Assembly: GCF_030027245.1 (NCBI RefSeq)
Contig: NZ_JASERT010000004.1
Span: forward strand, 1-64,000
DNA length: 64,000 nucleotides
Reading direction: 5' to 3'
Origin: Asticcacaulis sp. EMRT-3
GTDB lineage: Bacteria; Pseudomonadota; Alphaproteobacteria; Caulobacterales; Caulobacteraceae
Shown here piece by piece: positions 43,010-57,066 of this stretch. Every line of letters begins with the position of its first letter. The first letter of the stretch is position 1. Made by a program: the position numbers and the translations under genes. The notes below the pieces were generated by a model, which was given only the letters and a program-made list of their open reading frames with translations, searched no databases and was not told the DNA's origin.

Positions 43010-44416
43010 CTAAAGCCCGCCGCCGCCCAGCGCCGCATACAGGCTGGCCAGATTGGCGGCGCGCGCCAGTTGCACGGCGATCAAAGCCTGTTGCGCGCTG
43101 TAATCGGTGCGCTGCGCATCAAGCAGGTTGAGATAGGAATCGACCCCCTTGTCGTAGCGCGCCTTGCCTAAGTTTAGCGACACATCGGCGGCGTGGGCGG
43201 CCTTATCCGTGGCGCTGAGCCGGGTGGCGATGCTGGCGCGCACGGCCAGGGCGTCGGCCACATCGCGGAAGGCGGCCTGCACGCTCTTTTCATAGGTGGC
43301 CACGGCGATCTGCTGCTGCGCCTTTGCGCCCCTGAGATTGGCGATATTATAGCCGCCCCGGAAGATCGGCACGCTGATGGCGGGCGCAAAGCTCCAGGCA
43401 CCGCTGCCCGATGAGAACAGATGGCCGAGATCGGTGGAGGCCGAACCGGTGGAGCCGGTCAGGCTGATGCTGGGGAAGAAGGCGGCGCGCGCCGCGCCAA
43501 TATCGCCATTGGCGGCCCTGATCTGGTGCTCGGCGGCCAGAACATCGGGGCGCTGCGTCAACACATCCGAGGGCAGACCGGCGGGCAGGTCGCTGAGCAC
43601 AGCGTCCCCCGGCAGGCTGTCGGGCAGGTCGGCAGCAGCCAGTTGCGTGCCCGCGATCAGATTGAGCGCATCCTTGTCCTGCTGCACCTGCGCCTCGAAC
43701 TGCGCCGCGTCGGCGCGCGCCTGTTCGGTCAGGATTTCGAGCCCGCGCAGGTCGGTTTCCGAAGCCGCGCCCAGCGCGAACATGCGCTGGCTGAGATCAT
43801 AGCCCTCCTGGCGCGAACGCAGGGTTTCGCGGGCCAGCCGCAGCAGATCCTGATCGGCGGCCAGAGTCAGCCAGGCCTGCGCCGTTTGGCTGATCAGCGA
43901 TATTTGCGTGGCGCGGCGCGTTTCATCCGAGGCGAGGAAGCTTTCCTTCGCCGCCTGAGCCTGCGAGCGCGCCTTGCCGAACAGATCGATCTCCCACGCC
44001 GGAACGGCCAGGGCGGCGGCATAGATGTCGCTATCGATGCCCGGCTGACGGGTGCGCGTTTCGCTCAAGGTTCCGTTCAGCGACGGCACGAGGCCGGAGC
44101 GCGTCATCAGATAAGAGGCGCGCGCCGTTTCGATATTGAGCGCCGCGATGCGCAGGTCGCGGTTATGGGTCAGGGCCGCGTCGATGACGTGTTGCAGGCG
44201 CGGATCGAGGAAAACCTGCCGCCACGGCAGGTCGCCCGCATTTTGGCGCACATCCGGGCCTTGGGTCGTATCGGCGACGGGCCAGGTCTGCGCCACCGGC
44301 AGGGCGGGCCGCTCATATTTTGGCGTCATGGTGCAGGCGCTCAAACCCAAAGCCGAAGCCAGGGCAGAGGCCAGAGCAGAGGCCAGCATCAAAGAAGGAA
44401 GGGTGACAGATTTCAT
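43010..44416 (-). CDS. RND efflux outer-membrane lipoprotein (NodT/OprM family)
   Basis: Outer-membrane channel of 468 residues for drug or metabolite export. The signal peptide contains LASA repeated three times (36-bp tandem array at 44351-44386) and ends at lipobox LSAC (Cys28). The body has the TolC-like coiled coils, and family motifs such as FPSISLTGSTGSAS and YDKGVDSYLNLLDAQRT. Third gene of the leftward MFP-RND-OMF operon; it begins 14 bases after the RND pump stop. Confidence 0.92.
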   Translation of the reverse strand: MKSVTLPSLMLASALASALASALGLSACTMTPKYERPALPVAQTWPVADTTQGPDVRQNAGDLPWRQVFLDPRLQHVIDAALTHNRDLRIAALNIETARASYLMTRSGLVPSLNGTLSETRTRQPGIDSDIYAAALAVPAWEIDLFGKARSQAQAAKESFLASDETRRATQISLISQTAQAWLTLAADQDLLRLARETLRSRQEGYDLSQRMFALGAASETDLRGLEILTEQARADAAQFEAQVQQDKDALNLIAGTQLAAADLPDSLPGDAVLSDLPAGLPSDVLTQRPDVLAAEHQIRAANGDIGAARAAFFPSISLTGSTGSASTDLGHLFSSGSGAWSFAPAISVPIFRGGYNIANLRGAKAQQQIAVATYEKSVQAAFRDVADALAVRASIATRLSATDKAAHAADVSLNLGKARYDKGVDSYLNLLDAQRTDYSAQQALIAVQLARAANLASLYAALGGGGL

Positions 44417-44430
44417 GACCGGAACCTCAC

Positions 44431-47400
44431 TCAGTGCGCCGACGGGGGATGATCGCCATCATTGGCGGTGCGTTCCAGCTCGGCGTCCTCACGCATCTGC
44501 TTCAGCTTCAGCACATGTTTTTCGTCGGCCTTGAACCACTTTTGCACCAGTACGAAGAACAGGGGCACGAAGAAGATGGCCAGGAAGGTGGCCGACAGGA
44601 TGCCGCCGACCAGACCGGTGCCGATGGCGTGCTGCGCGCCCGAACCCGCGCCGTTGGAAATGGCCAGGGGCATGATACCGAAGGTGAAGGCGAGCGAGGT
44701 CATGATGATCGGCCGCAGGCGGATACGCACCGCCTCCAGCGTCGCCTCGGTCAGGCTGCGCCCGTCTTCGTGCAGCGATTTGGCGAATTCGACGATCAGG
44801 ATGGCGTTCTTCGCCGACAGGCCGATAATGGTCAGCAGCCCGACCTGGAAATAGACATCATTGTTCAGGCCACGGAAGCTCATGGCCACCAGAGCGCCCA
44901 GCACGCCCAGCGGAATCACCATGATGATGGCCAGCGGGATCGACCAGCTTTCATAGAGCGCCGCCAGCAGCAGGAAGACGACGGCAATCGACAGGGCATA
45001 GAGGGCCGAGGCCTGATTGCCCGATTGTTTTTCCTGCAAGGAAATGCCGGTCCATTCATAGCCAATGCCCGCCGGAAGCTGTTTGGCCAGCTTTTCCATC
45101 TCGGCCATCGCCGCACCGGAGCTTTTGCCGGGGGCGGGCGCGCCGTCGATCTCGACGGCGGACTGGCCGTTATAGCGCGTCAGGCTGGGCGCGCCGAAGC
45201 TCCATTTTTCGCTGGCGATCGACGACAGGGGCACCATCTGGTTATCGGCATTGCGCACATACCAGCGATCAAGATCGGCCGCGGTCATGCGGTAGGGCGC
45301 ATCGGCCTGGACATAGACCTTCTTGACGCGGCCACGATCAATGAAATCATTGACATAGGCCCCGCCCCAGGCGGTCGATAACACGCTGTTGACATCGGAC
45401 AGGGTCAGGTTCATCGCCCCGGCCTTGGCCTGATCGACATCGACATCGAGCTGGGCGGTGTCTTCCTGGCCAGTGGGCCGCACGGCGCTGAGCAGCGGGT
45501 CTTTCGCCGCCATGCCGAGCAACTGGTTGCGCGCCTTGATCAGGGTATCATGGCCGACATTGCCCTGATCCTCCAGCATCATGGTGAAGCCGGACGAGGT
45601 GCCGAGCGACGAGATGGCGGGCGGCACCACGGCGAAGACGCTGGCATTGGGATAGCTCGCAAAGTGCACGATGCCGCGCATGGCGACGGCGGCGGCCTTG
45701 TCCTTGGCGGCGTGGCGCTTGTCGAAATCCTTCAGGCGCACAAAGGCCATCGCCATGTTCTGGCCCTGTCCGCCGAAGCTGAAGCCGGTGACGCCGAACA
45801 CGGCCTCGACCGCCGGGTCCTTCTGGAAATAGGCGCGCACATCATCGACGACCTTTTGCGTGCGTTCCTGCGTCGCCCCGGCGGGCAACTGGATCAGGGT
45901 GAAGATGATGCCCTGATCTTCTTCCGGCAGAAAGGCGGTCGGCAGGCGCGTAAACAGCACCGCCACGGCGATGACGATCAGGGCAAAGCCGATCAGCCAG
46001 CGCACGGGCTGAACCAGAATTGTGCGCACAATGCCCTGATAGCGGTTGCTGGCGTCGTCGAAGCGATGATTGAACCAGCCGGCCAGTCCGGTCTGGATAT
46101 GGCCTTCGCCCTTTTTCACCGGCTTGAGCAAGGTGGCGCACAGGGCGGGCGTCAGGATCAGGGCCACCAGCACCGACAGGGCCATAGCCGACACCAGGGT
46201 CACCGAAAACTGGCGGTAGATCATGCCCTGTGAACCGGTGAAGAAGGCCATCGGAATAAACACGGCGGCCAGAACCAGCGCGATGCCGATCAGGGCGCCG
46301 GTGATTTCGCTCATCGATTTGCGCGTGGCGACGCGCGGCGGCAGTCCCTCTTCGGACATGATGCGCTCGACATTCTCGATCACCACGATGGCGTCATCGA
46401 CCAGCAGGCCGATGGCCAGCACCAGTCCGAACAGGGTCAGGGTATTGATCGAATAGCCAACCGCCGCCAGCACGCCGAACGTGCCCAGAAGCACGACCGG
46501 CACGGCGATGGTCGGGATCAGGGTGGCGCGCCAGTTTTGCAGGAAGACGTACATGACGAGGAAGACGAGCACGACCGCCTCAACCAGCGTCTTGACCACC
46601 TCCTCAATCGACAGGGTGATAAAGGGCGTGGTGTCGTAGGGCACGACATAGTGCATACCGTGGGGGAAGCTCTTCGACAGCTCGTCCATGCGCGCCTTGA
46701 CCGCCTTGGCGGTGTTGAGCGCATTGCCGCCCGGCGCCAGCTTGACCGCGATGCCCGACGCCGGGAAGCCGTTATAGGTGGCCGAGGAGGCATAGCTTTC
46801 CGCCCCCAGCTCAACGCGCGCCACATCGCTCAAATACACCCTGGCGCCATTGCTCTGGGTTTTGACGATGATGTTGCGGAACTGCTCCGGCGTGGTCAGG
46901 CGTGATTGCGCCGTGATGGTGGCGTTGAGCATGGTGCCCTTGACGGCGGGCAGGCCGCCCAGTTCGCCCGCCGACACCTGGGTGTTCTGGGTCTGGATGG
47001 CCGCCACCACATCGGACGGCATCAGATTATAGCTGGCCAGTTCCTGCGGATCGAGCCAGATGCGCATCGCATATTGCGCGCCGAACAACTGCACATCGCC
47101 GACGCCATCGACGCGGCTGATCTGATCCTTGATCGACGAGCCGATATAGTCGGAAATATCGGCCTGAGTGGTCTTGCCGTCATCGGCATAGACGCCGACC
47201 ACCAGAAGAAAGTTGGTGGTCGATTTCACGACCGAAATGCCCTGGGCCTGCACCGATTGCGGCAGAAGCGCCGTGACGGTTTGCAGCTTGTTCTGCACCT
47301 GCACCTGGGCGATGTCGGGATCGGTGCCCGATTTGAAGGTCAGGGTCAGGCTGGCCCCGCCGGTGGCGGTCGAGGTGGCGCTCATATACTGGAGGCCGTC

Positions 47401-47619
47401 CAGCCCCTTCATGCTCTGTTCGATGATCTGGGTGACGCTGTCTTCGACCGTCTTGGCCGAGGCCCCCGGATAGCTGGCCGAAACCGTCACCTGCGGCAGG
47501 GCGATGTCGGGATACTGCTCCACCGGCAGGCGCATGATGGACAGCGCCCCGGCCAGCATGATCACAATGGCGACGACCCAGGCGAAGATCGGCCGGTCGA
47601 TGAAAAAGCGCGACAGCAT
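44431..47619 (-). CDS. RND-family multidrug efflux permease (HAE1/AcrB type)
   Basis: Inner-membrane pump of 1062 residues, the full size for HAE1. Twelve membrane segments flank two large periplasmic loops. Visible are [22 protein letters not shown] at the N-terminus, the proton-relay Asp pair in [39 protein letters not shown] in the second loop, and the C-terminal [14 protein letters not shown]. It exports hydrophobic drugs or metabolites with the flanking adaptor and channel. Confidence 0.95.
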
Positions 47620-47641
47620 GGCGGCGTCCTATCCTGAATCT

Positions 47642-48784
47642 TTATTCGGCGCTGGTGACGACGGTGGCTTTCACCGGCGCGCCCGGCGCGATCTTTTGCA
47701 GCCCCTGCACGACCACCTTGTCGCCTGCGTTCAGGCCGCTGAGAACCAGCCATTTCTGCCCGATATTCGCCCCCAGCGTGACCGGGCGCACCGCGATCTT
47801 GCTGTCGGGGCCGACGACGAAGACCGAGGCATTGCCCTTCGGATCGCGCTGCACGGCGGCGGGATCGAGCAGAACGCCATGGGGAGCCACGCCCGTGGTG
47901 ATGCGGGCGCGCACGAACATGCCCGGCATCAGAAGCCCGTTCGGATTGTTGAACACGGCGCGCAGATTGACCGTGCCCGTGCCTTCATCGACCGTTGCGT
48001 CGGAAAATTCGAGATGGCCCGTGATCGGATACACGCTGCCATTATCGAGCACCAGTTGCACCTGAGCGCTGTCCGAAGCGCCGACCGTGCCCGCCTGCAC
48101 CGCCTGCTTCATGGCCAGCACATCCGAGGACGAGCGGCTGATATCGACATACATCTTATCCGATTCATGGATCGTGGTCAGGGCGTCGGCCTGACTGGCC
48201 GTGACCAGCGCGCCCGGCGTGTAGCTCGACTTGCCGATGAGGCCCGAAATCGGCGCGCGCACCGTGGTGTAGCCGAGATTGATCTGCGCCGCCTGCACCT
48301 GAGCCTGGGCGGACTGCACCTGGGCCTGCGCCTGTTGCAGGGCGGCCTGGGCGTCGTCATTATCCTGCTTCGAAATGGCGTTGATCCTGACCAGTTCGGC
48401 ATAGCGGTCGGCCTTGAGCTTCGCCGAGGTCCGGGCCGCCTGGGCATTGGCCAGCGCCGCCTGGGCGCTGCTGAGCGCCGCCTGATAGGTGGCCGGGTCG
48501 ATCTGGTAGAGCGGCTGGCCGGCCTTGACCGGGCCGCCTTCGGTGAACAGGCGCGCCTTGATGATGCCGCCGACCTGCGGGCGCACATCCGATACGAGGT
48601 AGGACGAGGTGCGCCCGCTCAGTTCGGTCGTCAGCGGCACGGCTTCGGTATGTACAATCTCGACCCCGACCTGGGCTGGCGGTTGCTGCATACCGCCGGG
48701 CTTGGCCCCGCAGGCGCTTAACAGCACGGCCAGCGCGGCGGCGGGGAGCAGGTGGCGGGCGGGCATGTGGAAAAGGGCGGTCAT
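47642..48784 (-). CDS. RND efflux periplasmic adaptor (AcrA type)
   Basis: Membrane-fusion lipoprotein of about 380 residues; leader with lipobox LLSAC (Cys25). It has the split lipoyl segments (VRPQVGGIIKARLFTEGGPVKAGQPLYQID and YTTVRAPISGLIGKSSYTPGALV) around a helical hairpin of Gln/Ala-rich repeats, then the beta-barrel part. I prefer the ATG at 48784; a GTG at 48820 would extend the leader and lie within a candidate operator. First gene of the efflux operon, divergent from tetR. Confidence 0.92.
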   Translation of the reverse strand: MTALFHMPARHLLPAAALAVLLSACGAKPGGMQQPPAQVGVEIVHTEAVPLTTELSGRTSSYLVSDVRPQVGGIIKARLFTEGGPVKAGQPLYQIDPATYQAALSSAQAALANAQAARTSAKLKADRYAELVRINAISKQDNDDAQAALQQAQAQVQSAQAQVQAAQINLGYTTVRAPISGLIGKSSYTPGALVTASQADALTTIHESDKMYVDISRSSSDVLAMKQAVQAGTVGASDSAQVQLVLDNGSVYPITGHLEFSDATVDEGTGTVNLRAVFNNPNGLLMPGMFVRARITTGVAPHGVLLDPAAVQRDPKGNASVFVVGPDSKIAVRPVTLGANIGQKWLVLSGLNAGDKVVVQGLQKIAPGAPVKATVVTSAE

Positions 48785-48806
48785 CAGGGCGGCTCGCACA
48801 AAATGA

Positions 48807-48826
48807 GAATGAGCGTTCACTCAACG
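48807..48826. promoter_or_regulatory. Candidate TetR operator of the efflux operon
   Basis: GAATGAGCGTTCACTCAAC contains an imperfect inverted repeat, TGAGCG-TTCACTCA, resembling TGAACG/CGTTCA-type sites of TetR efflux repressors. It lies just before the adaptor gene. Confidence 0.45.
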
Positions 48827-48913
48827 GTGGCTTCCCTTAATCGGGAGGCTGTGTTAGGTCAAGCGCGGAGTCATTAAAATAATTGCAACTCAGAATATGT
48901 CAGTAGCTTTACA

Positions 48914-49528
48914 ATGATGCGTCCGGTGACGCCTTCGCGCGAACAGCGCCGTCAGGAACGCCGCGCCATCATCCTCGACGCCGCCATTGCCTGCGCCATC
49001 CGCTCAGGCTTTCGCGGCGCTTCGATGGACGAGATCGCGCGCGAAGCCGGGCTCAGTGTCGGCGTCATCTATCGCTATTTTTCCAGCAAGGAAGCGATCA
49101 TCGAGGCGATTGTGGCGCGCGATCTGGACGAGATCCAGAACAAGGTGGCGCGCATCGGGGCGTGTGCGCCCGAAGAGCTGGTGGCGCTGGTTCTGGCCGA
49201 TGCCGATGATTTCGTCAGCCGCCAGCGTCAGCGCGACCGCGCCGCCCTGCGGCTGGAAATCTATGCCGAAGCGGCGCGCAATCCGCGCGTCGAGGCCATT
49301 TTGCGCGCCATTATCGAAGACGAGCGCGAACTGGGCCGCCAGCTTTTCCGCCGCACCCTGCCTTATGCGGCAAGCGAGGCCGAGCTGACGGCGCGCGCCG
49401 ATATGTTTCGCGTCATGGCCGACGGCCTGCTGGCCAATGGCCTCTACGCGGCGGATGGCGGCGACGCCTTTATCTCCACCCTGCGCACGGTGATGCGGGC
49501 CTTGCTGACAAAGGGCTGCGAGGCCTAA
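48914..49528 (+). CDS. TetR/AcrR-family repressor
   Basis: Regulator of 204 residues. The N-terminal helix-turn-helix is RRAIILDAAIACAIRSGFRGASMDEIAREAGLSVGVIYRYFSSKEAIIEAIV, a textbook TetR domain; the C-terminal ligand part is divergent. It is transcribed away from the RND operon, which it probably represses. Its stop codon overlaps, in convergent sense, the stop codon of the next gene by two bases. Confidence 0.93.
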   Translation: MMRPVTPSREQRRQERRAIILDAAIACAIRSGFRGASMDEIAREAGLSVGVIYRYFSSKEAIIEAIVARDLDEIQNKVARIGACAPEELVALVLADADDFVSRQRQRDRAALRLEIYAEAARNPRVEAILRAIIEDERELGRQLFRRTLPYAASEAELTARADMFRVMADGLLANGLYAADGGDAFISTLRTVMRALLTKGCEA

Positions 49529-51033
49529 AGCCTCGCACCCAGTTGCGGCAGGGCCCGGAAGGCGTCGGTGATGCGGCTGACGGCGCGGTTGCGATAGGCC
49601 AGCGGCCCGTCTTCGTCTTCGGGATGGACGAGCATGGTGGCATTGGCCTCGAAGACCAGCACGTGCCCGTCGGGCAGCAGGGAAAAATCCAGCCCGCAAT
49701 AGTCGAGATCGAGCCGCCGTCCGATTTCGGCGATGGCGGCGCTGGCCCGCGCGCCGAGAAAGGCTGCGGTGTCATAGAGGTAGCGCGCTTCCTCGGCGCG
49801 CCGCCAGTCAGCATCGCCGCCCCTGTTCATGTCCGAGCTGTCGTAATGCACCATCCAGTGGCTGGAAATGGCCCAGTGATAGGGCAGGGGCACGCGGTCG
49901 ATAAAGATCATCCGCCCCTTGCGAAACTGGCCGTCGGCCTGTTGGTAATCGACATATTGGGTGACATAGACCGCCTGACCGTCCAGCCGGGCGACAATCG
50001 CGGCCAGATCGTCAGGCGTGTCGGCGCGGTACAGTCCCACCCCGCCGTGCGAGGCCAGAGGGCGCACCAGCACGGGCAGGTCAAGCCCGCCTTGCACAAT
50101 GTCCTGCGCCATCACCCGCACGGTTCTGGGCGCGCAGACCCCTGTGATGTCGCCGAGCAGGGCGGGGATCAGGTGGCGAAATGTCTGCTGCACGCGCTCC
50201 GGCCGGTTGATGACGGGCCGGGTGTTGCGGGCGAGAAACTGCGCCACCGCTTCGGCGGAAGGCCCGGTCAGATCGGGATCGCCGAGGCTGTTGAACACCA
50301 CATCATAGGGCGGCAAAACCTGATCGGCGCGGGCGTGTTCCATATACCAGACGTGGCGGCTGTACAGGGTGGGCGGCATCAGAAACCGGTAGGGTATATT
50401 GCCCTGGGTGCGCGTGGCCAGCACCAGCACGTCGCACAGGCTGTCGGCCACCACATCATGAAACAGGGCGCAGGCGGCATAGGCGCGGTCGAGCCAGGCG
50501 TCCGCCGCCGCGCTGTCGCCATCGCGTTCGGCCAGGCTGGACAGGGTCTGGCAGGCCAGGGCCTGAGCCGGTTCCAGCTCTATGGCGGCCAGTGCCGCCT
50601 CACGCGCCTGATCGGGCAGACCGGCGCGCAGATAAAGGGCGGCCAGTCCGCCCTGCGCCTCGGCGTGCAGAGGATCAAGCCTCAGGGCGCGGCGAAACTG
50701 GCGCTCGGCATCGTGCAGACGTTCGCGCGTCGCATAGGCAAAGGCCAGTTCCATCTGCGGCGCGGCCTGATCAAAATGCAGGGCGGCGGCCAGCTCCAGC
50801 CTGATCAGCGCCGGTTCGGCGGCGGCGATCCGTTCGGACAGATGCTTATGCAGGCTGCGGGCGGGCAGGGCGCGCGGATCAAGCGCCCGGGCGCGTTCGA
50901 CGGCCATCATCGCCTCGCCCAGCCGGTCTGCCTGTGCCAGCTCTCTGGCCGCAGCCAGCCACGGGCCGGAATGACGGGCCAGAGCAGGTGCTATGCCGAA
51001 AAACTCGGCCAGAGGATCAGCGGTTGTCGTCAC
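49525..51033 (-). CDS. TPR-ATP-grasp fusion protein (putative ligase)
   Basis: Protein of 502 residues. Residues about 25-190 form TPR-like helical repeats (ELAFAYATRERLHDAERQFRRALRLDPLHAEAQGGLAALYLRAG). Residues about 215-500 resemble an ATP-grasp enzyme: a nucleotide-binding loop with VLVRPLASHGGVGL (SHGG at 328-331), a shared motif SSHWMVHY at 390-397, and a metal-binding end with GLDFSLLPDGHVLVFEAN (E462, N464). ATP-grasp enzymes join a carboxylate to an amine or thiol. A GTG start is used; the ribosome site is weak. Last gene of a leftward four-gene operon, 92 bases after the PLP gene. Substrate unknown. Confidence 0.8.
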   Translation of the reverse strand: MTTTADPLAEFFGIAPALARHSGPWLAAARELAQADRLGEAMMAVERARALDPRALPARSLHKHLSERIAAAEPALIRLELAAALHFDQAAPQMELAFAYATRERLHDAERQFRRALRLDPLHAEAQGGLAALYLRAGLPDQAREAALAAIELEPAQALACQTLSSLAERDGDSAAADAWLDRAYAACALFHDVVADSLCDVLVLATRTQGNIPYRFLMPPTLYSRHVWYMEHARADQVLPPYDVVFNSLGDPDLTGPSAEAVAQFLARNTRPVINRPERVQQTFRHLIPALLGDITGVCAPRTVRVMAQDIVQGGLDLPVLVRPLASHGGVGLYRADTPDDLAAIVARLDGQAVYVTQYVDYQQADGQFRKGRMIFIDRVPLPYHWAISSHWMVHYDSSDMNRGGDADWRRAEEARYLYDTAAFLGARASAAIAEIGRRLDLDYCGLDFSLLPDGHVLVFEANATMLVHPEDEDGPLAYRNRAVSRITDAFRALPQLGARL

Positions 51034-51125
51034 ACCGGGTAGCGATCCTTTCGGACAGGGTCAGTTTCAGCCTGGAGGCATGGCGTGAGTCTCAGGCATC
51101 AATAGGGCGCCGCGTTGCAAACCTG

Positions 51126-52619
51126 TCATTTTGCGGACAGCGCCTGTCTGGCCGCCGACTGGACAAGCTGCGCGGCGAGGGCGGCTGTCCGGTCAAGCGC
51201 CTGCATGGCTTCGGCGATAACGGCCTCCCGTCCGGCCTGATTTTGCGCCGCCCTGACCAGCAGCGGCGCGCTCAGGCACAGGCGCAGGATGGCGCTGTCG
51301 CTGGCGAAACGGATCGGCTGGCCGAGATGCACGGGCGGGCTGGCGGCGGCCAGATTCTGGTGCAGCAAAGCGGCCTGCGCAAAACTCAGGGCGCGTCCGT
51401 GTGGTGTGAGCTGAAACGGAAAAATGGTCGGCAGGCTGTCGAAATCATGTCCGCTCAACAGGGCCGAACGGTCAGGGGCGATGCTGTCGAGGGGCGCGAA
51501 GGCCGGATCGGCGATCAGGCGCGCCTGAACCGCCCCGGCAAAGGCGGCGGTGGCGGCGCGGCGGCGGGCGACGGGCAGGGCGTAACAGGCGCGCATTTCA
51601 AACAGCGCCGCCTGCCAGCGCAGCGCAAGGCCCCAGTTGGGCGCGTCATCCAGCGCCCGTCGGGCCGCCCAGCCGATGGGCCATTCGGCGCGGGCGCTGT
51701 AATCGCGCATCGCCGGGTGCAGGCTCTTGTGCCGCAGCCGCCCCGACCAGGCGGGCGGGCAGAGCAGGGCGCCGCTGAAGACGGGGCCTGCGAAGAATTT
51801 CGAGCCGGTGATGGCCACCAGAAAATTCTGCGCCAGACAGGCCCGGATCGTATCGGGCGCGAGGCGGCACTGGCAGGCATCGATCAGGATGTCGAGATGG
51901 TGCGGAAAGCGCTGTTTGAGGCGCAGCACGCTGGCCAGTCCGGGCGCGATCAGGCCGGTTTTCGACACATCGCTGACCACCAGCAGGCAGGGCTGGCCGC
52001 GCGCCACGGCCTCAGCGATGGCCGCTGTCAGTTCGGCCTCGATGTCCGTTTCGCGGCGCAAGCCCCCATCGGTGTCGCGCACGGCAAATTCATGCGTCTC
52101 GGCGCGGTCGCCAAAGCTCAGCTCTTCGCCCTTGGCCACGACGCGGCCATGCCGGGCGCTGGCCAGAAAATGACGGCCTGACACGGCCAGACCGACGCCG
52201 CTGCCCGTCTCATCGGGGCCGGGCGTCAAGACTTTCAGCGGCGTCTCATAAGCCCCGCCCAGCAGTTGCGACACCAGAAGATGGAGGTCGGTGCCCGACG
52301 CGGCCAGAACCACGCCGGTGGCGTCTGGCAGGCCGAACATGGCGCTGATCTCAGCGCGTAAGGCCGCCATCGCCTTTTCGTAAACAAGACCGGCATCTTG
52401 CGTTGTCAGCGCCGCGCCAAGCTGGTCGTGCAGGCTTTGCGCCGCCTGAAATGCGCCCGCTGTCGGGGTGGAGGCGGTGGAGGAGCCAAAGGCCAGAGCC
52501 TGCGGCACGGGATGGGGGGCATGGCCGTAGCGGTTCAGGCCGGACACAGGATCGGGCGTCAGGCGTTCATCGCCGCCTGACAGCCACGTCTCCATAACCG
52601 TGTCCGGCAATGTGTTCAT
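51126..52619 (-). CDS. PLP-dependent enzyme, class V aminotransferase-like
   Basis: Protein of 497 residues of fold type I. D247 in ILIDACQCRLAP is the expected PLP-pyridine Asp, and K274 in ITGSKFFAGPVFSGALL the Schiff-base Lys. SSTASTPTAGAFQAA and ASGTDLHLLVSQLLGG suit cofactor phosphate binding. The general layout is nearest to class V aminotransferases/lyases, but I do not recognise a named family. It is translationally coupled to the upstream ATP-grasp gene (ATGA). Could be a transaminase, desulfurase-like lyase or condensing enzyme. Confidence 0.75.
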   Translation of the reverse strand: MNTLPDTVMETWLSGGDERLTPDPVSGLNRYGHAPHPVPQALAFGSSTASTPTAGAFQAAQSLHDQLGAALTTQDAGLVYEKAMAALRAEISAMFGLPDATGVVLAASGTDLHLLVSQLLGGAYETPLKVLTPGPDETGSGVGLAVSGRHFLASARHGRVVAKGEELSFGDRAETHEFAVRDTDGGLRRETDIEAELTAAIAEAVARGQPCLLVVSDVSKTGLIAPGLASVLRLKQRFPHHLDILIDACQCRLAPDTIRACLAQNFLVAITGSKFFAGPVFSGALLCPPAWSGRLRHKSLHPAMRDYSARAEWPIGWAARRALDDAPNWGLALRWQAALFEMRACYALPVARRRAATAAFAGAVQARLIADPAFAPLDSIAPDRSALLSGHDFDSLPTIFPFQLTPHGRALSFAQAALLHQNLAAASPPVHLGQPIRFASDSAILRLCLSAPLLVRAAQNQAGREAVIAEAMQALDRTAALAAQLVQSAARQALSAK

Positions 52620-53842
52620 GCGCTGGTCATGGCCATAGCTTGCGGCTCCTGCGCCGCCATGTCGATAAAGGCGTCGAACAGACGCCGCATGGCGGGTTTC
52701 TTATAGGCATATAGTGCTTCGTCATCCATGTCATGCACCACCATAGCCACGTCGAGTTCGAAAATCAGCAGGCGGCCATCGGGCAGTTCGGCGCAGTCCA
52801 TGCCGAAATAGTCGAGCCCGATCAGCGCATAAAGCTCGGCGAAGGCGGCAGCGTGGCGGACGGCGAAATCCTGATCGAAGTCTTTCATCCATTGGGCCTC
52901 GGCGGCGCGCTTACCGGCGTTTTCGTGCATGTCGGCATTCATATAATGCACCATCCAGTGGCTGGATATGGCCTCATGGCTGGCGAACGGCCTGCCCTTG
53001 ATCTGGACGATGCGCTGCTTGGCATAGAGGCCATCGGCATTGCGGTAGTCGATAAAGGGGATGATATAGAAGGCGTCCGCCGTCTCGGCGCGCAAGGCCC
53101 CGGCCAGTTCGTCGGGGTTGCTGAGGCGGTGCATACCCTTACCGGCATGGGTGCCGATCGGGCGCAGAATGACCGGAAAATCCATGCCCTGCGCCGCCTC
53201 TGTCAGCGACATTGCGCCCTGGCTGACCGCCGCCAGCGCCGCGCGGCCAAGCCTTATCGTGGCGGGCGATAACAGCGCCTGTGCGTCTTTCAGTCGCTGG
53301 CTGACGCCATCGCGCGTCAGGGAGGCGATCATGGCCGGGTCATTATTCAGGATCGGCCCCGGCCAGTCTTTCAGCAGAACCTCCAGCCGTTCCAGCACAG
53401 GCTGATTGGCCGTCGATTCGCCAACCGCGAGGAAGGCGACATCGTGGGGCGGCAGGTCAGGCAGGCTTTGCGTGCTGGCATCGACAAAACACAGCCACAG
53501 GCGGCAGTTTGAACCGTGCAGCAGGAAATCGAGCGGCGTATTGGCCATCATGTCGCCCGCCGTGACGAAGGCGAGGATCGACAGGCCCGAACCATCGCCA
53601 TGCGTGATGCAGTAATCGCGCTGTTTGCCAATCGCCACGCCCTGCCAGGTCAGGCCGTCCTCCGCCTGACCCCGGCTGAGCAATATGGTCGAAATATCCA
53701 TCAGGGCTGAGGCATCATCGGGATTATCGGTGGCGCGCTTGATCAGATGATCCCACAGGGGCGTTATATCCTTGCCGTGGTGGCAGGTGCGGACGATCTC
53801 GCTCATGCCGGTAATATCATGCAGCGAAGCATGGGTCTTCAT
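52616..53842 (-). CDS. ATP-grasp protein (putative ligase), paralogue of the TPR-ATP-grasp gene
   Basis: Protein of 408 residues. A mixed N-terminal domain (about 80-170, with LSILAFVTAGDMMANTPLDF) precedes an ATP-grasp region: VILRPIGTHAGKGM (HAGKG at 232-236), SSHWMVHY (293-300), and YFGMDCAELPDGRLLIFELD. The last motif has D364 where the paralogue has Asn (E-x-D against E-x-N), a change at a magnesium-binding position. Both paralogues also share an IDYRNADGLYAKQRIV / VDYQQADGQFRKGRMI segment. Coupled on both sides by ATGA overlaps. It may ligate the amine made by the adjacent decarboxylase; this is inference. Confidence 0.78.
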   Translation of the reverse strand: MKTHASLHDITGMSEIVRTCHHGKDITPLWDHLIKRATDNPDDASALMDISTILLSRGQAEDGLTWQGVAIGKQRDYCITHGDGSGLSILAFVTAGDMMANTPLDFLLHGSNCRLWLCFVDASTQSLPDLPPHDVAFLAVGESTANQPVLERLEVLLKDWPGPILNNDPAMIASLTRDGVSQRLKDAQALLSPATIRLGRAALAAVSQGAMSLTEAAQGMDFPVILRPIGTHAGKGMHRLSNPDELAGALRAETADAFYIIPFIDYRNADGLYAKQRIVQIKGRPFASHEAISSHWMVHYMNADMHENAGKRAAEAQWMKDFDQDFAVRHAAAFAELYALIGLDYFGMDCAELPDGRLLIFELDVAMVVHDMDDEALYAYKKPAMRRLFDAFIDMAAQEPQAMAMTSA

Positions 53843-55296
53843 AGGGCTGGCCCCTTCAGTTGGCGGGCGAACAATAAGACGCCGTCGATCAGGGCGTCGA
53901 TGTCGGCCTCCGTGGTGCGGTGGTTGACGATGGCGGCGCGGATCGCTTTTCTGCCGTCGATCAGGGTGAGGGAAGGGGCGACGCGACCCGCCGCGTGCAG
54001 GGCTTCGATGATGCGGCCGTTCAAGGCGCCACTGGCGTCATCGCGCACGCCGAAACAGACGATATTGAGGCTGACCGGGGCCAGGACTTCCAGTTCCGGC
54101 TCGGCCTCGATGCGCCGCGCAAGACCGGCGGCCAGACGGCAATTGGCGGCCATCGACGCACCCAGCGCATCGAGGCCATAGACCTTAAGCGTGAACCAGG
54201 TCTTCAGCGCGCGAAAGCCGCGTGACAGGTCGGGGCCGTAATCGCACGGCCACAGATCGCCCGCCGCCAGACCGTGTTCGGCGCGGGTCAGATAGGCGGC
54301 CTCATTGGCGAACACCGCCTTTTGCGCCGCGCCGTCGTGCGTCAAAAGGAAACCGGCATCATAGGGCACCTGCCCCCATTTGTGAAAATCGAAGGCCAGA
54401 CTGTCGCTTAAGTTTATGCCCGCAAACAAAGGGGCCAGTTCGGGGGCGCAGACGCCGAGCGCCCCCAGCGCGCCGTCGATATGGTAATAGAGGCCGTGCT
54501 CAGAGGCGATGGCGGCCAGCGCCGTCAGGTCGTCAATGGCCCCGGTATTGACCGTTCCCGCCGTGCCGATCAGCATGAAGGGCTTGAGGCCCCCTTTCTG
54601 GTCTTGCCGGATCGCAGCTTGCAGGGCGTCCGTGTCCATCCGGCCCGCTGCATCCGTGGCGATGCGGCGCAGATGTTGCGCTCCGATCCCCGCCATATCG
54701 AAGGCGCGCGGAATGCAGCCATGCGCCGCCTGAGACGTATAGGCCACGAGGGGGGCCTGTGGCGCTGTGGAAAGCGCCCTGTGCCGCGCCAGCAGAACCG
54801 CCACGAAATTGGCCTGTGAGGCCCCGGTCAGGAAGAGGCCGTGCGCCGTTTCGGGAAAGCCGAACAGGTCGCGCATCCACAGGGCGATCTGGCGCTCGAC
54901 CGCGATGGCCATGTGATTGCGTCCGCCGAGATTGGCGTTGAGGCCCGCCGCCAGCATCTCGGCCAGCATCCCGACCGGCGTGCCGCCGCCCTGCACCCAG
55001 CCCATGAAACCCGGATGGGCATTGCCGCTGCTAAAGGGCAATATGTCGTCGAGAAATTGCTGATGCACATCGCCCAGCGGTGAGGGGCCAAGCGGCAGGG
55101 GGGCATGAAAACGGGCGCGCGCCGCAGCGGGCGGGGCCTGCCATACCGGCTGCTGGCGTAAAGATTCCAGATGATCGAACATATCGTCGAGCATCTGATG
55201 GCCATGCGTCCGCAAACCTGACCAGTCCTGTGGGTCGAGTGAGGTGGGCGATGCTGCCGCGGCGGGTTCCGCAGCCTGTTTTTGTGAGACAGCCAA
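53839..55296 (-). CDS. Group II PLP-dependent decarboxylase
   Basis: Protein of 485 residues of the aromatic-L-amino-acid/glutamate/diaminobutyrate decarboxylase family (PF00282). HPGFMGWVQGGGTPVGMLAEMLAA, GLFLTGASQANFVAVLLARH, LIGTAGTVNTGAIDD, and YHIDGALGALGV lead to the PLP-lysine segment FDFHKWGQVPYDAGFLL. It should release CO2 from an amino acid to give an amine; the substrate class cannot be read by eye. The frame is open to 55422, but the TTG at 55296 has GGAG seven bases upstream and begins just before the conserved part. First gene of the four-gene operon; 176 bases separate it from the araC-type gene upstream on the same strand. Confidence 0.88.
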   Translation of the reverse strand: MAVSQKQAAEPAAAASPTSLDPQDWSGLRTHGHQMLDDMFDHLESLRQQPVWQAPPAAARARFHAPLPLGPSPLGDVHQQFLDDILPFSSGNAHPGFMGWVQGGGTPVGMLAEMLAAGLNANLGGRNHMAIAVERQIALWMRDLFGFPETAHGLFLTGASQANFVAVLLARHRALSTAPQAPLVAYTSQAAHGCIPRAFDMAGIGAQHLRRIATDAAGRMDTDALQAAIRQDQKGGLKPFMLIGTAGTVNTGAIDDLTALAAIASEHGLYYHIDGALGALGVCAPELAPLFAGINLSDSLAFDFHKWGQVPYDAGFLLTHDGAAQKAVFANEAAYLTRAEHGLAAGDLWPCDYGPDLSRGFRALKTWFTLKVYGLDALGASMAANCRLAAGLARRIEAEPELEVLAPVSLNIVCFGVRDDASGALNGRIIEALHAAGRVAPSLTLIDGRKAIRAAIVNHRTTEADIDALIDGVLLFARQLKGPAL

Positions 55297-55472: not shown

Positions 55473-56531
55473 TCAGGCACCGGCCTCATGGTCTGGAGTC
55501 TCAAAATGCTGTGGCGTCGTCCTGTGGCGGCGTGTTTCGGACGGACTTTCACCGAACAGGCGCGCATAATATTGGGCAAAGCGGCCAATATGATAAAAGC
55601 CCAGATCGCGGGCAATGGCGCTGATCGGGCGGTGATTATCCGGCGAAATCAACAGTTCGCGCGCGCGCCTCAGGCGTAAGGTGCGCAGATAGATGAGCGG
55701 CGTCGTGTCCAGAAAGGTGCGAAACCCGATCTCCAGCGTGCGAAGACTGACCTGAACTTCGTCGGCGATGTCGGCGATCGTCAGGGGTTCGTGGTAGTGC
55801 TGGCGCATAAAGTCGCGCGCCCGGCGGATATAGCCCGGCACCGCCCCGCCGCCCGACTGCACCATGCGTTCCGAATAGCGGTGCAGCGAACATTCCAGCA
55901 CAAGGTGGGTAAAGGCCTCGACCAGCCGCTGCTGTAGCCGTGGCGTCAGGGGCGGGTGGGAATCCGTGTGCGGCAGGGTGCTCAGTTGCTCAATCATCGA
56001 GGCGACGATGCGGCCGTGGGTCGTGTCCAGTTCCAGACGGGGCGACAGCTTTAAGTCACTTTCCACGGGAAACTGGAGAATGTCCGACAGGACACGTTCG
56101 GCATTGCGAAAATCCATCGTGAAACCGACGCTCTCATGACAGGTCGCGTCCGGTTCGTGCCGCCTGCGGCTATGACCATCGCTCTGATACAATAGGGCGA
56201 GGCCCGGTTCGGCTTCAATATATTCGTCCCCGCGGATCAGGGACACCCGGCCGCGCAACGGCATAACCATATTGATGATCGAACGGTCCGGGTGATCGAC
56301 GCGCGTCCAGGCCCCGTCGCAAATAATACGATAGAAATACATCTCCGGCGCAAGCGATGCCGCGTTCCGGCCCAGTCCGAGAAAGTTCAGTTTCCAGTTA
56401 AATTGACCCTTATCGACATCCGGATTCATGTGCGACGCCAGCTTACGCTCGATAAAAAACGCTCTCAGGCTGTCAAAAGTCTCACCCTTCAGAAAATGTT
56501 GTGCGCTGGCCTGACCCTGACACTCACTCAT
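55473..56531 (-). CDS. AraC-family transcriptional regulator
   Basis: Protein of 352 residues. The C-terminal 100 residues have two helix-turn-helix units: EPLTIADIADEVQVSLRTLEIGFRTFLDTTPLIYLRTLRLRRARELL and PISAIARDLGFYHIGRFAQYYARLFGESPSE. The N-terminal part is a cupin-like sensor domain of the AraC_binding_2 type. The ATG at 56531 follows AGGGAGCGAAATGC. It lies directly upstream of the decarboxylase/ATP-grasp operon on the same strand and is the most likely regulator of it. Confidence 0.9.
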   Translation of the reverse strand: MSECQGQASAQHFLKGETFDSLRAFFIERKLASHMNPDVDKGQFNWKLNFLGLGRNAASLAPEMYFYRIICDGAWTRVDHPDRSIINMVMPLRGRVSLIRGDEYIEAEPGLALLYQSDGHSRRRHEPDATCHESVGFTMDFRNAERVLSDILQFPVESDLKLSPRLELDTTHGRIVASMIEQLSTLPHTDSHPPLTPRLQQRLVEAFTHLVLECSLHRYSERMVQSGGGAVPGYIRRARDFMRQHYHEPLTIADIADEVQVSLRTLEIGFRTFLDTTPLIYLRTLRLRRARELLISPDNHRPISAIARDLGFYHIGRFAQYYARLFGESPSETRRHRTTPQHFETPDHEAGA

Positions 56532-57066
56532 GCATTTCGCTCCCTGGCCCCGAAAGCCCTGCTGATGGTTGTGTCTGGTGAGTGACCGGCGTGTAGAAGC
56601 AACATTACAAAAAGACGTGATCACGATGCGGGAGGGCGTCCGTTTTCAAACACATCAATCCGGAATCCGAATCAAAATGTAAAATACAGTATTTCCTTGA
56701 CGATAGTTAGAATTATTGACTCAATTTACAATGGCACGCATTTGACTGAATAAAATACTTTGATTCGGTAATTAACTACTGCTAAATGCGTCAGAAAGCG
56801 CAGGCAACATCCATTTTCCGAAACGAAATTCGGACACGGGTGATGAATAGATACCGGTAACATTATCCTTAGGGCTTTATTAACCACACAGGGTGATTTC
56901 ATCCATATTCCTCAGGGAATGGCTGGTAAAATTCACATCACGCGCTTCCGGCGAGAGCACCTCCCCCCTCTCGCTGACGCCGAACCTGGGATCTTTGAAC
57001 AGACCTCAAAGCCGACGCCTTTCGGAATCACGTGACACAACTTCTCTTTGAAACGTGAGGTAGAAC
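56532..57066. other. AT-rich divergent promoter region
   Basis: About 535 bases without a gene, between the AraC gene and the chemoreceptor. The centre (56660-56880) is AT-rich. AAATACAGTATTT at 56682-56694 is a perfect palindrome and could be a regulator site. No RNA gene is recognised. Confidence 0.5.

Follow-up and report, generated by a model that had tools for sequence, protein, structure and literature searches.

What would a run of overlapping genes for two pyridoxal phosphate (PLP) enzymes and an ATP-grasp ligase make, and do such genes belong together beyond the genome in which they were noticed? The locus that raises the question lies in Asticcacaulis sp. EMRT-3, on contig NZ_JASERT010000004.1 of assembly GCF_030027245.1; the first 64,000 nucleotides of this contig are the window analysed here. 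Four open reading frames (ORFs) on the minus strand are transcribed in the order D, C, B, A. A preliminary description, made from the letters alone, had proposed a four-gene leftward operon with three members joined by ATGA overlaps. The ORF positions and two overlaps bear out this arrangement, and the operon claim stands in part: D, C and B recur as a unit, whereas A and the AraC-type regulator gene upstream of D lie outside it. It is well shown that D, C and B constitute a co-inherited unit with intact conserved residues, and the analysis supports reading it as a functional one. We put at roughly even odds (about 0.5) the reading that this unit encodes a single small, mobile pathway, independent of non-ribosomal peptide synthetases (NRPSs), in which an amine from D is joined to a carboxylate by C and an amino-acid partner is handled by B.

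Recurrence of the three-gene unit

The first gene of the unit, D (53839..55296, minus strand), encodes a group II PLP decarboxylase resembling aromatic-amino-acid decarboxylases. Its stop codon shares a 4-nt ATGA overlap (...CCCTATGAAG...) with the start of C (52616..53842, minus strand), an ATP-grasp ligase with N-terminal helices resembling tetratricopeptide repeats (TPRs). The stop of C overlaps in the same way, by 4 nt (ATGA; ...GCGCATGAAC...), the start of B (51126..52619, minus strand), a divergent fold-type I, class V-like PLP enzyme. Translation of D most likely begins at the TTG at 55296, which has GGAG just 5' of it and agrees with the coordinate in the preliminary description; the mechanical ORF runs from 55422.

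In an initial survey of annotated plasmids, Rhizobium tumorigenes proved to carry C, B and D as adjacent genes, 52%, 34% and 56% identical to their window counterparts, respectively. Named genomes were then scanned for two motifs (HWMVHY-type and GDxMAN-type) on the basis of five C sequences; this returned 187 C relatives, and the best 80 of the 187 were examined. D and/or B adjoin C at 53 of these 80 loci, a figure valid for close relatives of C only: both are present at 38, D only at 13, B only at 2, and neither at 27. The gene orders are CBD (26), DCB (9), DC (9), DC with a convergent B (3), CB (2), C with a convergent D (2), CD (1) and DCC (1). In one case, an alphaproteobacterial metagenome-assembled genome (MAG; L116 6537-9191), D and C are merged into one 884-aa ORF, with B downstream. 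The preliminary description had allowed that its genes might not stay together in other genomes; for D, C and B, two or three of them do so at those 53 loci, and D and C are once fused. Carriers of the unit belong to the Alpha-, Beta- and Gammaproteobacteria and include Rhizobium, Mesorhizobium, Hyphomicrobium, Caulobacter and Phenylobacterium MAGs, Novosphingobium, Undibacterium, Pseudoduganella and Methylobacter. The other neighbour clusters listed are scattered common families (response regulators, ATP-binding cassette ATPases, resistance-nodulation-division (RND) pumps) or are confined to close relatives.

Within the genus and the class the unit is thinly spread. Among 25 genomes of the genus, Asticcacaulis sp. 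EMRT-3 included, B occurs only in the latter, and there is no other strong C match, just four at E 4e-4 to 8e-4. Of 289 genomes sampled across the class, three have a strong B match, again including the source genome, and there is one weak match besides. So few carriers of B indicate a sporadic distribution, as expected of a horizontally shared accessory pathway. The named-genome scan with B alone as query gave no relative, and C relatives had no match in 50,697 phage records.

The window copies look intact. Alignments comprising 50 rows for D, 78 for C and 39 for B show that they retain the residues invariant at the PLP and ATP sites; D and C each depart once from a consensus of at least 95%, and B departs from it twice. 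These counts exclude seven gene calls that have no start or run off a contig; only residues 1-480 of the L116 fusion entered the D counts, and neither the tree nor the C counts include a second C label at L081, a stand-alone ORF described below.

The decarboxylase D

D matches PF00282 with 170.1 bits against a gathering cut-off of 27, and is the sole match to this family in its genome (3.3 Mb, 4 contigs). The FHKWG lysine motif singled out in the preliminary description is present at residues 346-350, numbered from 55422. In the same numbering H234, D316 and K348 are invariant in 50 of 50 aligned rows; we take K348 to be the Schiff-base lysine, and H234 and D316 to be the PLP-stacking histidine and PLP-site aspartate. 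D is homologous over most of its length to the aromatic-amino-acid decarboxylases (PF00282, for example PDB 4obu) and keeps their PLP-site Lys, His and Asp. It differs from them in that its relatives form a group of their own, 52-66% identical to window D (where that was the best query) and linked to C and B. Its best NCBIfam equivalog, diaminobutyrate (DABA) decarboxylase, scores 142 bits against a cut-off of 900.

The PLP enzyme B

No Pfam or NCBIfam model, PF00266 included, matches B at E 1. Two of three further B homologues likewise lack any Pfam family, and the third has a single unrelated weak match. The predicted model (predicted local distance difference test score, pLDDT, 90) has the fold of class V aminotransferases and cysteine desulfurases. 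D247 and K274, the residues cited for this enzyme in the preliminary description, are correct and are invariant in 39 of 39 aligned sequences. With the class V superfamily (NifS/SufS, C-DES, AGT) B shares the fold, the PLP lysine, the aspartate, a glutamine and a C-terminal arginine; it is only 9-17% identical to its members among the matches listed, and has conserved GGDxR, SGTD, ETG and DxSKTG motifs of its own.

An alternative is that B is a sulfur-mobilizing cysteine desulfurase or C-S lyase and the product a sulfur-containing amide or thio-compound. Where the loop with the persulfide cysteine of cysteine desulfurases is expected, B has, as judged by motif, GQ(P/A)(V/I). We regard a sulfur-mobilizing B as distinctly improbable.

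The preliminary description reported no NRPS, which is true of the window region read. Yet on plasmid pSMED03 of Sinorhizobium medicae (L005 1-12835) a 26.7 kb NRPS gene overlaps at its end with a B-family gene, and downstream are genes for a SagB-family protein and a phosphopantetheinyl transferase. A plasmid of Rhizobium sp. 007 (L008 7980-9515) carries a B 93% identical to the pSMED03 copy, and in Neorhizobium a B homologue lies near genes for a D-aminopeptidase and a D-alanine aminotransferase. The neighbours in S. medicae and Neorhizobium hint that B acts on peptides or amino acids.

The ATP-grasp ligase C

C was assigned by profile, by conserved residues and by the fold of a homologue. 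The SSHWMVHY motif noted earlier is indeed found in C, and occurs in A as well. A profile of nine C sequences compared with solved structures matched a designed TPR chain (7obi) at a whole-chain E of 5.4e-5, with no individual stretch passing alone; helices are also present at the N-terminus in the predicted model of a C homologue. Since C appears TPR-like as well, A is not the sole TPR-like ATP-grasp protein of the locus. By VIA-align Z, the folds nearest to one C homologue (L051) are those of RimK, LysX and ArgX, and the model has the RimK-type ligase core. The NCBIfam rimK_fam cut-off of 143.4 bits is far above the scores of C (12.3 bits) and A (20.2 bits). The metal ligands of RimK-type enzymes are D, E and N, the last two in an E-x-N motif. 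The corresponding residues of C, assigned by motif, are D349, E362 and D364, present in 78 of 78 rows, with aspartate in place of the asparagine. C differs from RimK, LysX and ArgX in its E-x-D motif, its TPR-like N-terminus and its near-invariant HWMVHY-type motif. A housekeeping orthologue for each gene, which the preliminary description had named as a refuting result, was not found: B is without a model match at E 1, and C and D lie far below the cut-offs of the NCBIfam models that they touch.

RimK, ArgX and LysX act on protein C-termini, and the likeness of C to them supports the strongest rival reading, protein or peptide tailoring. The TPR-like part of C (and of A) would here grip a protein or peptide, whose carboxylate would take the D-derived amine or a B-made amino acid, in the manner of RimK on ribosomal protein S6. 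The TPR-like N-terminus of C, the RimK-family folds nearest to its homologue and a peptidase-type domain fused to or encoded beside C in some genomes speak for it. RimK itself is described as acting on a protein C-terminus (PMC4431377). On the other side, no linked acceptor gene emerged from a limited short-ORF search, though an acceptor encoded elsewhere is possible. That search took in ORFs of 22-110 aa within 1.2 kb on each flank of 54 units, and the 12 largest clusters were viewed; BLAST is weak on peptides this short. The widest cluster is the tail of D, and the other 11 are limited to either of two sets of close relatives, so that no conserved short peptide gene was seen among them. We consider tailoring unlikely, if still the most serious competitor of the small-molecule pathway.

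The same clusters bear on two known systems. The LysX/LysW systems use an amino carrier, and no linked LysW-type carrier was found among the 12 clusters, a limited search of which it should be said that a carrier could lie elsewhere. Graspetides and related peptide ligase systems resemble the unit in their central ATP-grasp ligase and in the TPR proteins near some of them, according to the portion of PMC8939145 consulted. They differ in having a precursor peptide, of which none was seen among these 12 clusters, within the limits of BLAST just given.

The peptidase-type domain is a C-terminal extension of about 150 aa on ten C homologues, namely L022 and nine of the 80 loci (L047, L048, L051, L057, L058, L060, L066, L074 and L080). 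At L081 (9185-9646) the domain is encoded on its own, by a gene joined to the end of C through an ATGA overlap. Its likeness to peptidase C39 is sub-threshold (Pfam E 0.054), it has no solved relative by sequence, and the predicted model is poor over it (pLDDT below 50, residues 483-569). The genome of the window gave no match to the domain, in a search that lacked a positive control. Glutathionylspermidine synthetase/amidase combines an ATP-grasp ligase with a cysteine amidase. The C-C39 fusions resemble that enzyme in idea; the type of amidase differs, and window C is without the domain. Glutathionylspermidine synthetase is not among the 50 fold matches listed, an absence that excludes nothing.

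Two further plasmids show C homologues in other company. In Paraburkholderia sp. FT54 (L023 11962-14327) the C homologue overlaps by ATGA a gene for a SerC-type phosphoserine aminotransferase, a class V PLP enzyme (NF003764, 400 bits against a cut-off of 253), at this one locus. Plasmid p352-3 of Cupriavidus sp. EM10 carries two C-type ATP-grasp genes (L024 11962-13223 and L025 9662-10918), one of them split over two reading frames, and metal-resistance genes are present.

Copies of C without D or B

Two observations weigh against the unit as a strict operon. First, C stands without D or B at 27 of the 80 loci, and at 19 of the 27 each flank extends for 3 kb or more. A search for B and D covered 16 of those 19 genomes. 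B is present in five (as two pieces in G473), all of which also have D at 54-67% identity, the G472 copy with one internal stop. G467 holds a complete D-C-B set elsewhere in its genome and G470 a D-C pair and a lone B; in G462, G472 and G473 the genes are dispersed, either over different contigs or at a distance of 20 kb. The remaining 11 genomes have D at 53% in one, 41-43% in two and 29-33% in five, and none in three. Fourteen C-only rows, mostly from Paracoccaceae, form one clade; the nine followed up have no B and no D above 43%. Second, window C adjoins this C-only clade, with weak support (84/44), within a well-supported set of 19 rows, 15 of them C-only. These C-only copies, and the grouping of window C with them, are the chief evidence against reading the unit as a strict operon.

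In Paracoccaceae, the C-only copies (L085 5826-9164, L063 5816-9167 and similar loci) are preceded on the same strand by genes for a class III-type aminotransferase and a small TPR protein, each family being found at nine loci.

The solitary copies also bear on the view that D, C and B are unconnected genes brought together only by a favoured site of insertion. In its favour are the 27 lone C loci, the occurrence of B alone in L006 and others, and the lack of any flanking gene that tracks the unit across lineages. Against it stand the recurrence of one set of members in several gene orders, the frequency of overlaps, the D-C fusion and genome-wide co-occurrence. Independence is disfavoured, and we hold it to be very improbable.

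Genes outside the unit

A (49525..51033, minus strand) encodes a TPR and ATP-grasp protein (TPR_14, 33.7 bits; TIGR00768 rimK_fam at E 3.2e-4, below the cut-off). Its start codon is the GTG at 51033, 92 nt beyond the B stop. Full-length relatives of A at 40-51% identity occur in several genera of the same family, and 60 of 149 family genomes match A at E 0.001, many of these matches being TPR-only or C genes. All 14 loci labelled A, some of them short or cut at a contig end, are without B, C and D; one A-like gene, 36% identical to A, adjoins D in G034. No common partner was found among the other neighbours of A relatives. A is treated as a local or accessory addition, outside the recurring unit.

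The AraC-type regulator said to precede the operon is in place upstream of D (55473..56624, minus strand; PF12833 and PF14525 above cut-off). No relative of at least 50 bits occurs in the 80 loci, and the gene is local, not conserved with D-C-B.

Downstream of A is a convergent TetR gene (PF00440), the two gene ends overlapping by 4 bases. The TetR gene is divergent to a putative RND efflux set (outer membrane factor, pump and adaptor; window 43010-49528, judged from ORF sequences). The GC content of the four genes is 65.5%, against 62.2% for the window. Promoter and terminator scans did not exceed shuffled sequence (1 against a mean of 1.6, and 5 against 5.5, respectively).

A proposed pathway

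Read together, the enzyme families suggest the following steps. (i) D would decarboxylate an L-amino acid, perhaps of aromatic type, to an amine. (ii) C, as a RimK/LysX-type enzyme, would activate a carboxylate as acyl phosphate and link it to the D-made amine. ATP-grasp ligases form amides via acyl phosphates. The single D-C fusion suggests channelling between these two steps. (iii) B would make or trim the amino-acid partner by transamination, elimination or a related reaction. (iv) In the genome of the window the second ATP-grasp protein, A, may add a further residue. (v) In some rhizobia and a Hyphomicrobium, the C39-like, cysteine-peptidase-type domain on C may either hydrolyse the amide or transfer it. 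An amine-capped amide or short peptide-like compound is a plausible product, and the simplest joint reading of the D, C and B families. The amine-containing peptide-like or amidated product of the preliminary description holds to that extent, as a prediction from enzyme families.

Searches of the open-access literature (PMC) aimed at the gene set or at ATP-grasp systems turned up no description of D-C-B, most subscription journals lying outside this coverage. The words 'decarboxylase', 'pyridoxal' and 'PLP' are absent from the main texts of PMC8939145 and PMC4431377. What the locus holds is a combination of known enzyme superfamilies, including the PLP family of B, without description in the literature searched.

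Significance

Gene-cluster finders keyed on NRPS, polyketide synthase or ribosomally synthesized and post-translationally modified peptide signatures may miss a three-enzyme unit of this kind. D-C-B is small enough to be expressed whole in Escherichia coli, which makes its product directly testable. The unit recurs in rhizobia, hyphomicrobia, caulobacters, a sphingomonad and some beta- and gammaproteobacteria. Tentatively, and with somewhat less confidence than in the pathway as such, it may represent an undescribed, horizontally shared minimal pathway, with D-C channelling and a new class V PLP family, that would supply soil and aquatic proteobacteria with new amine-capped amide metabolites.

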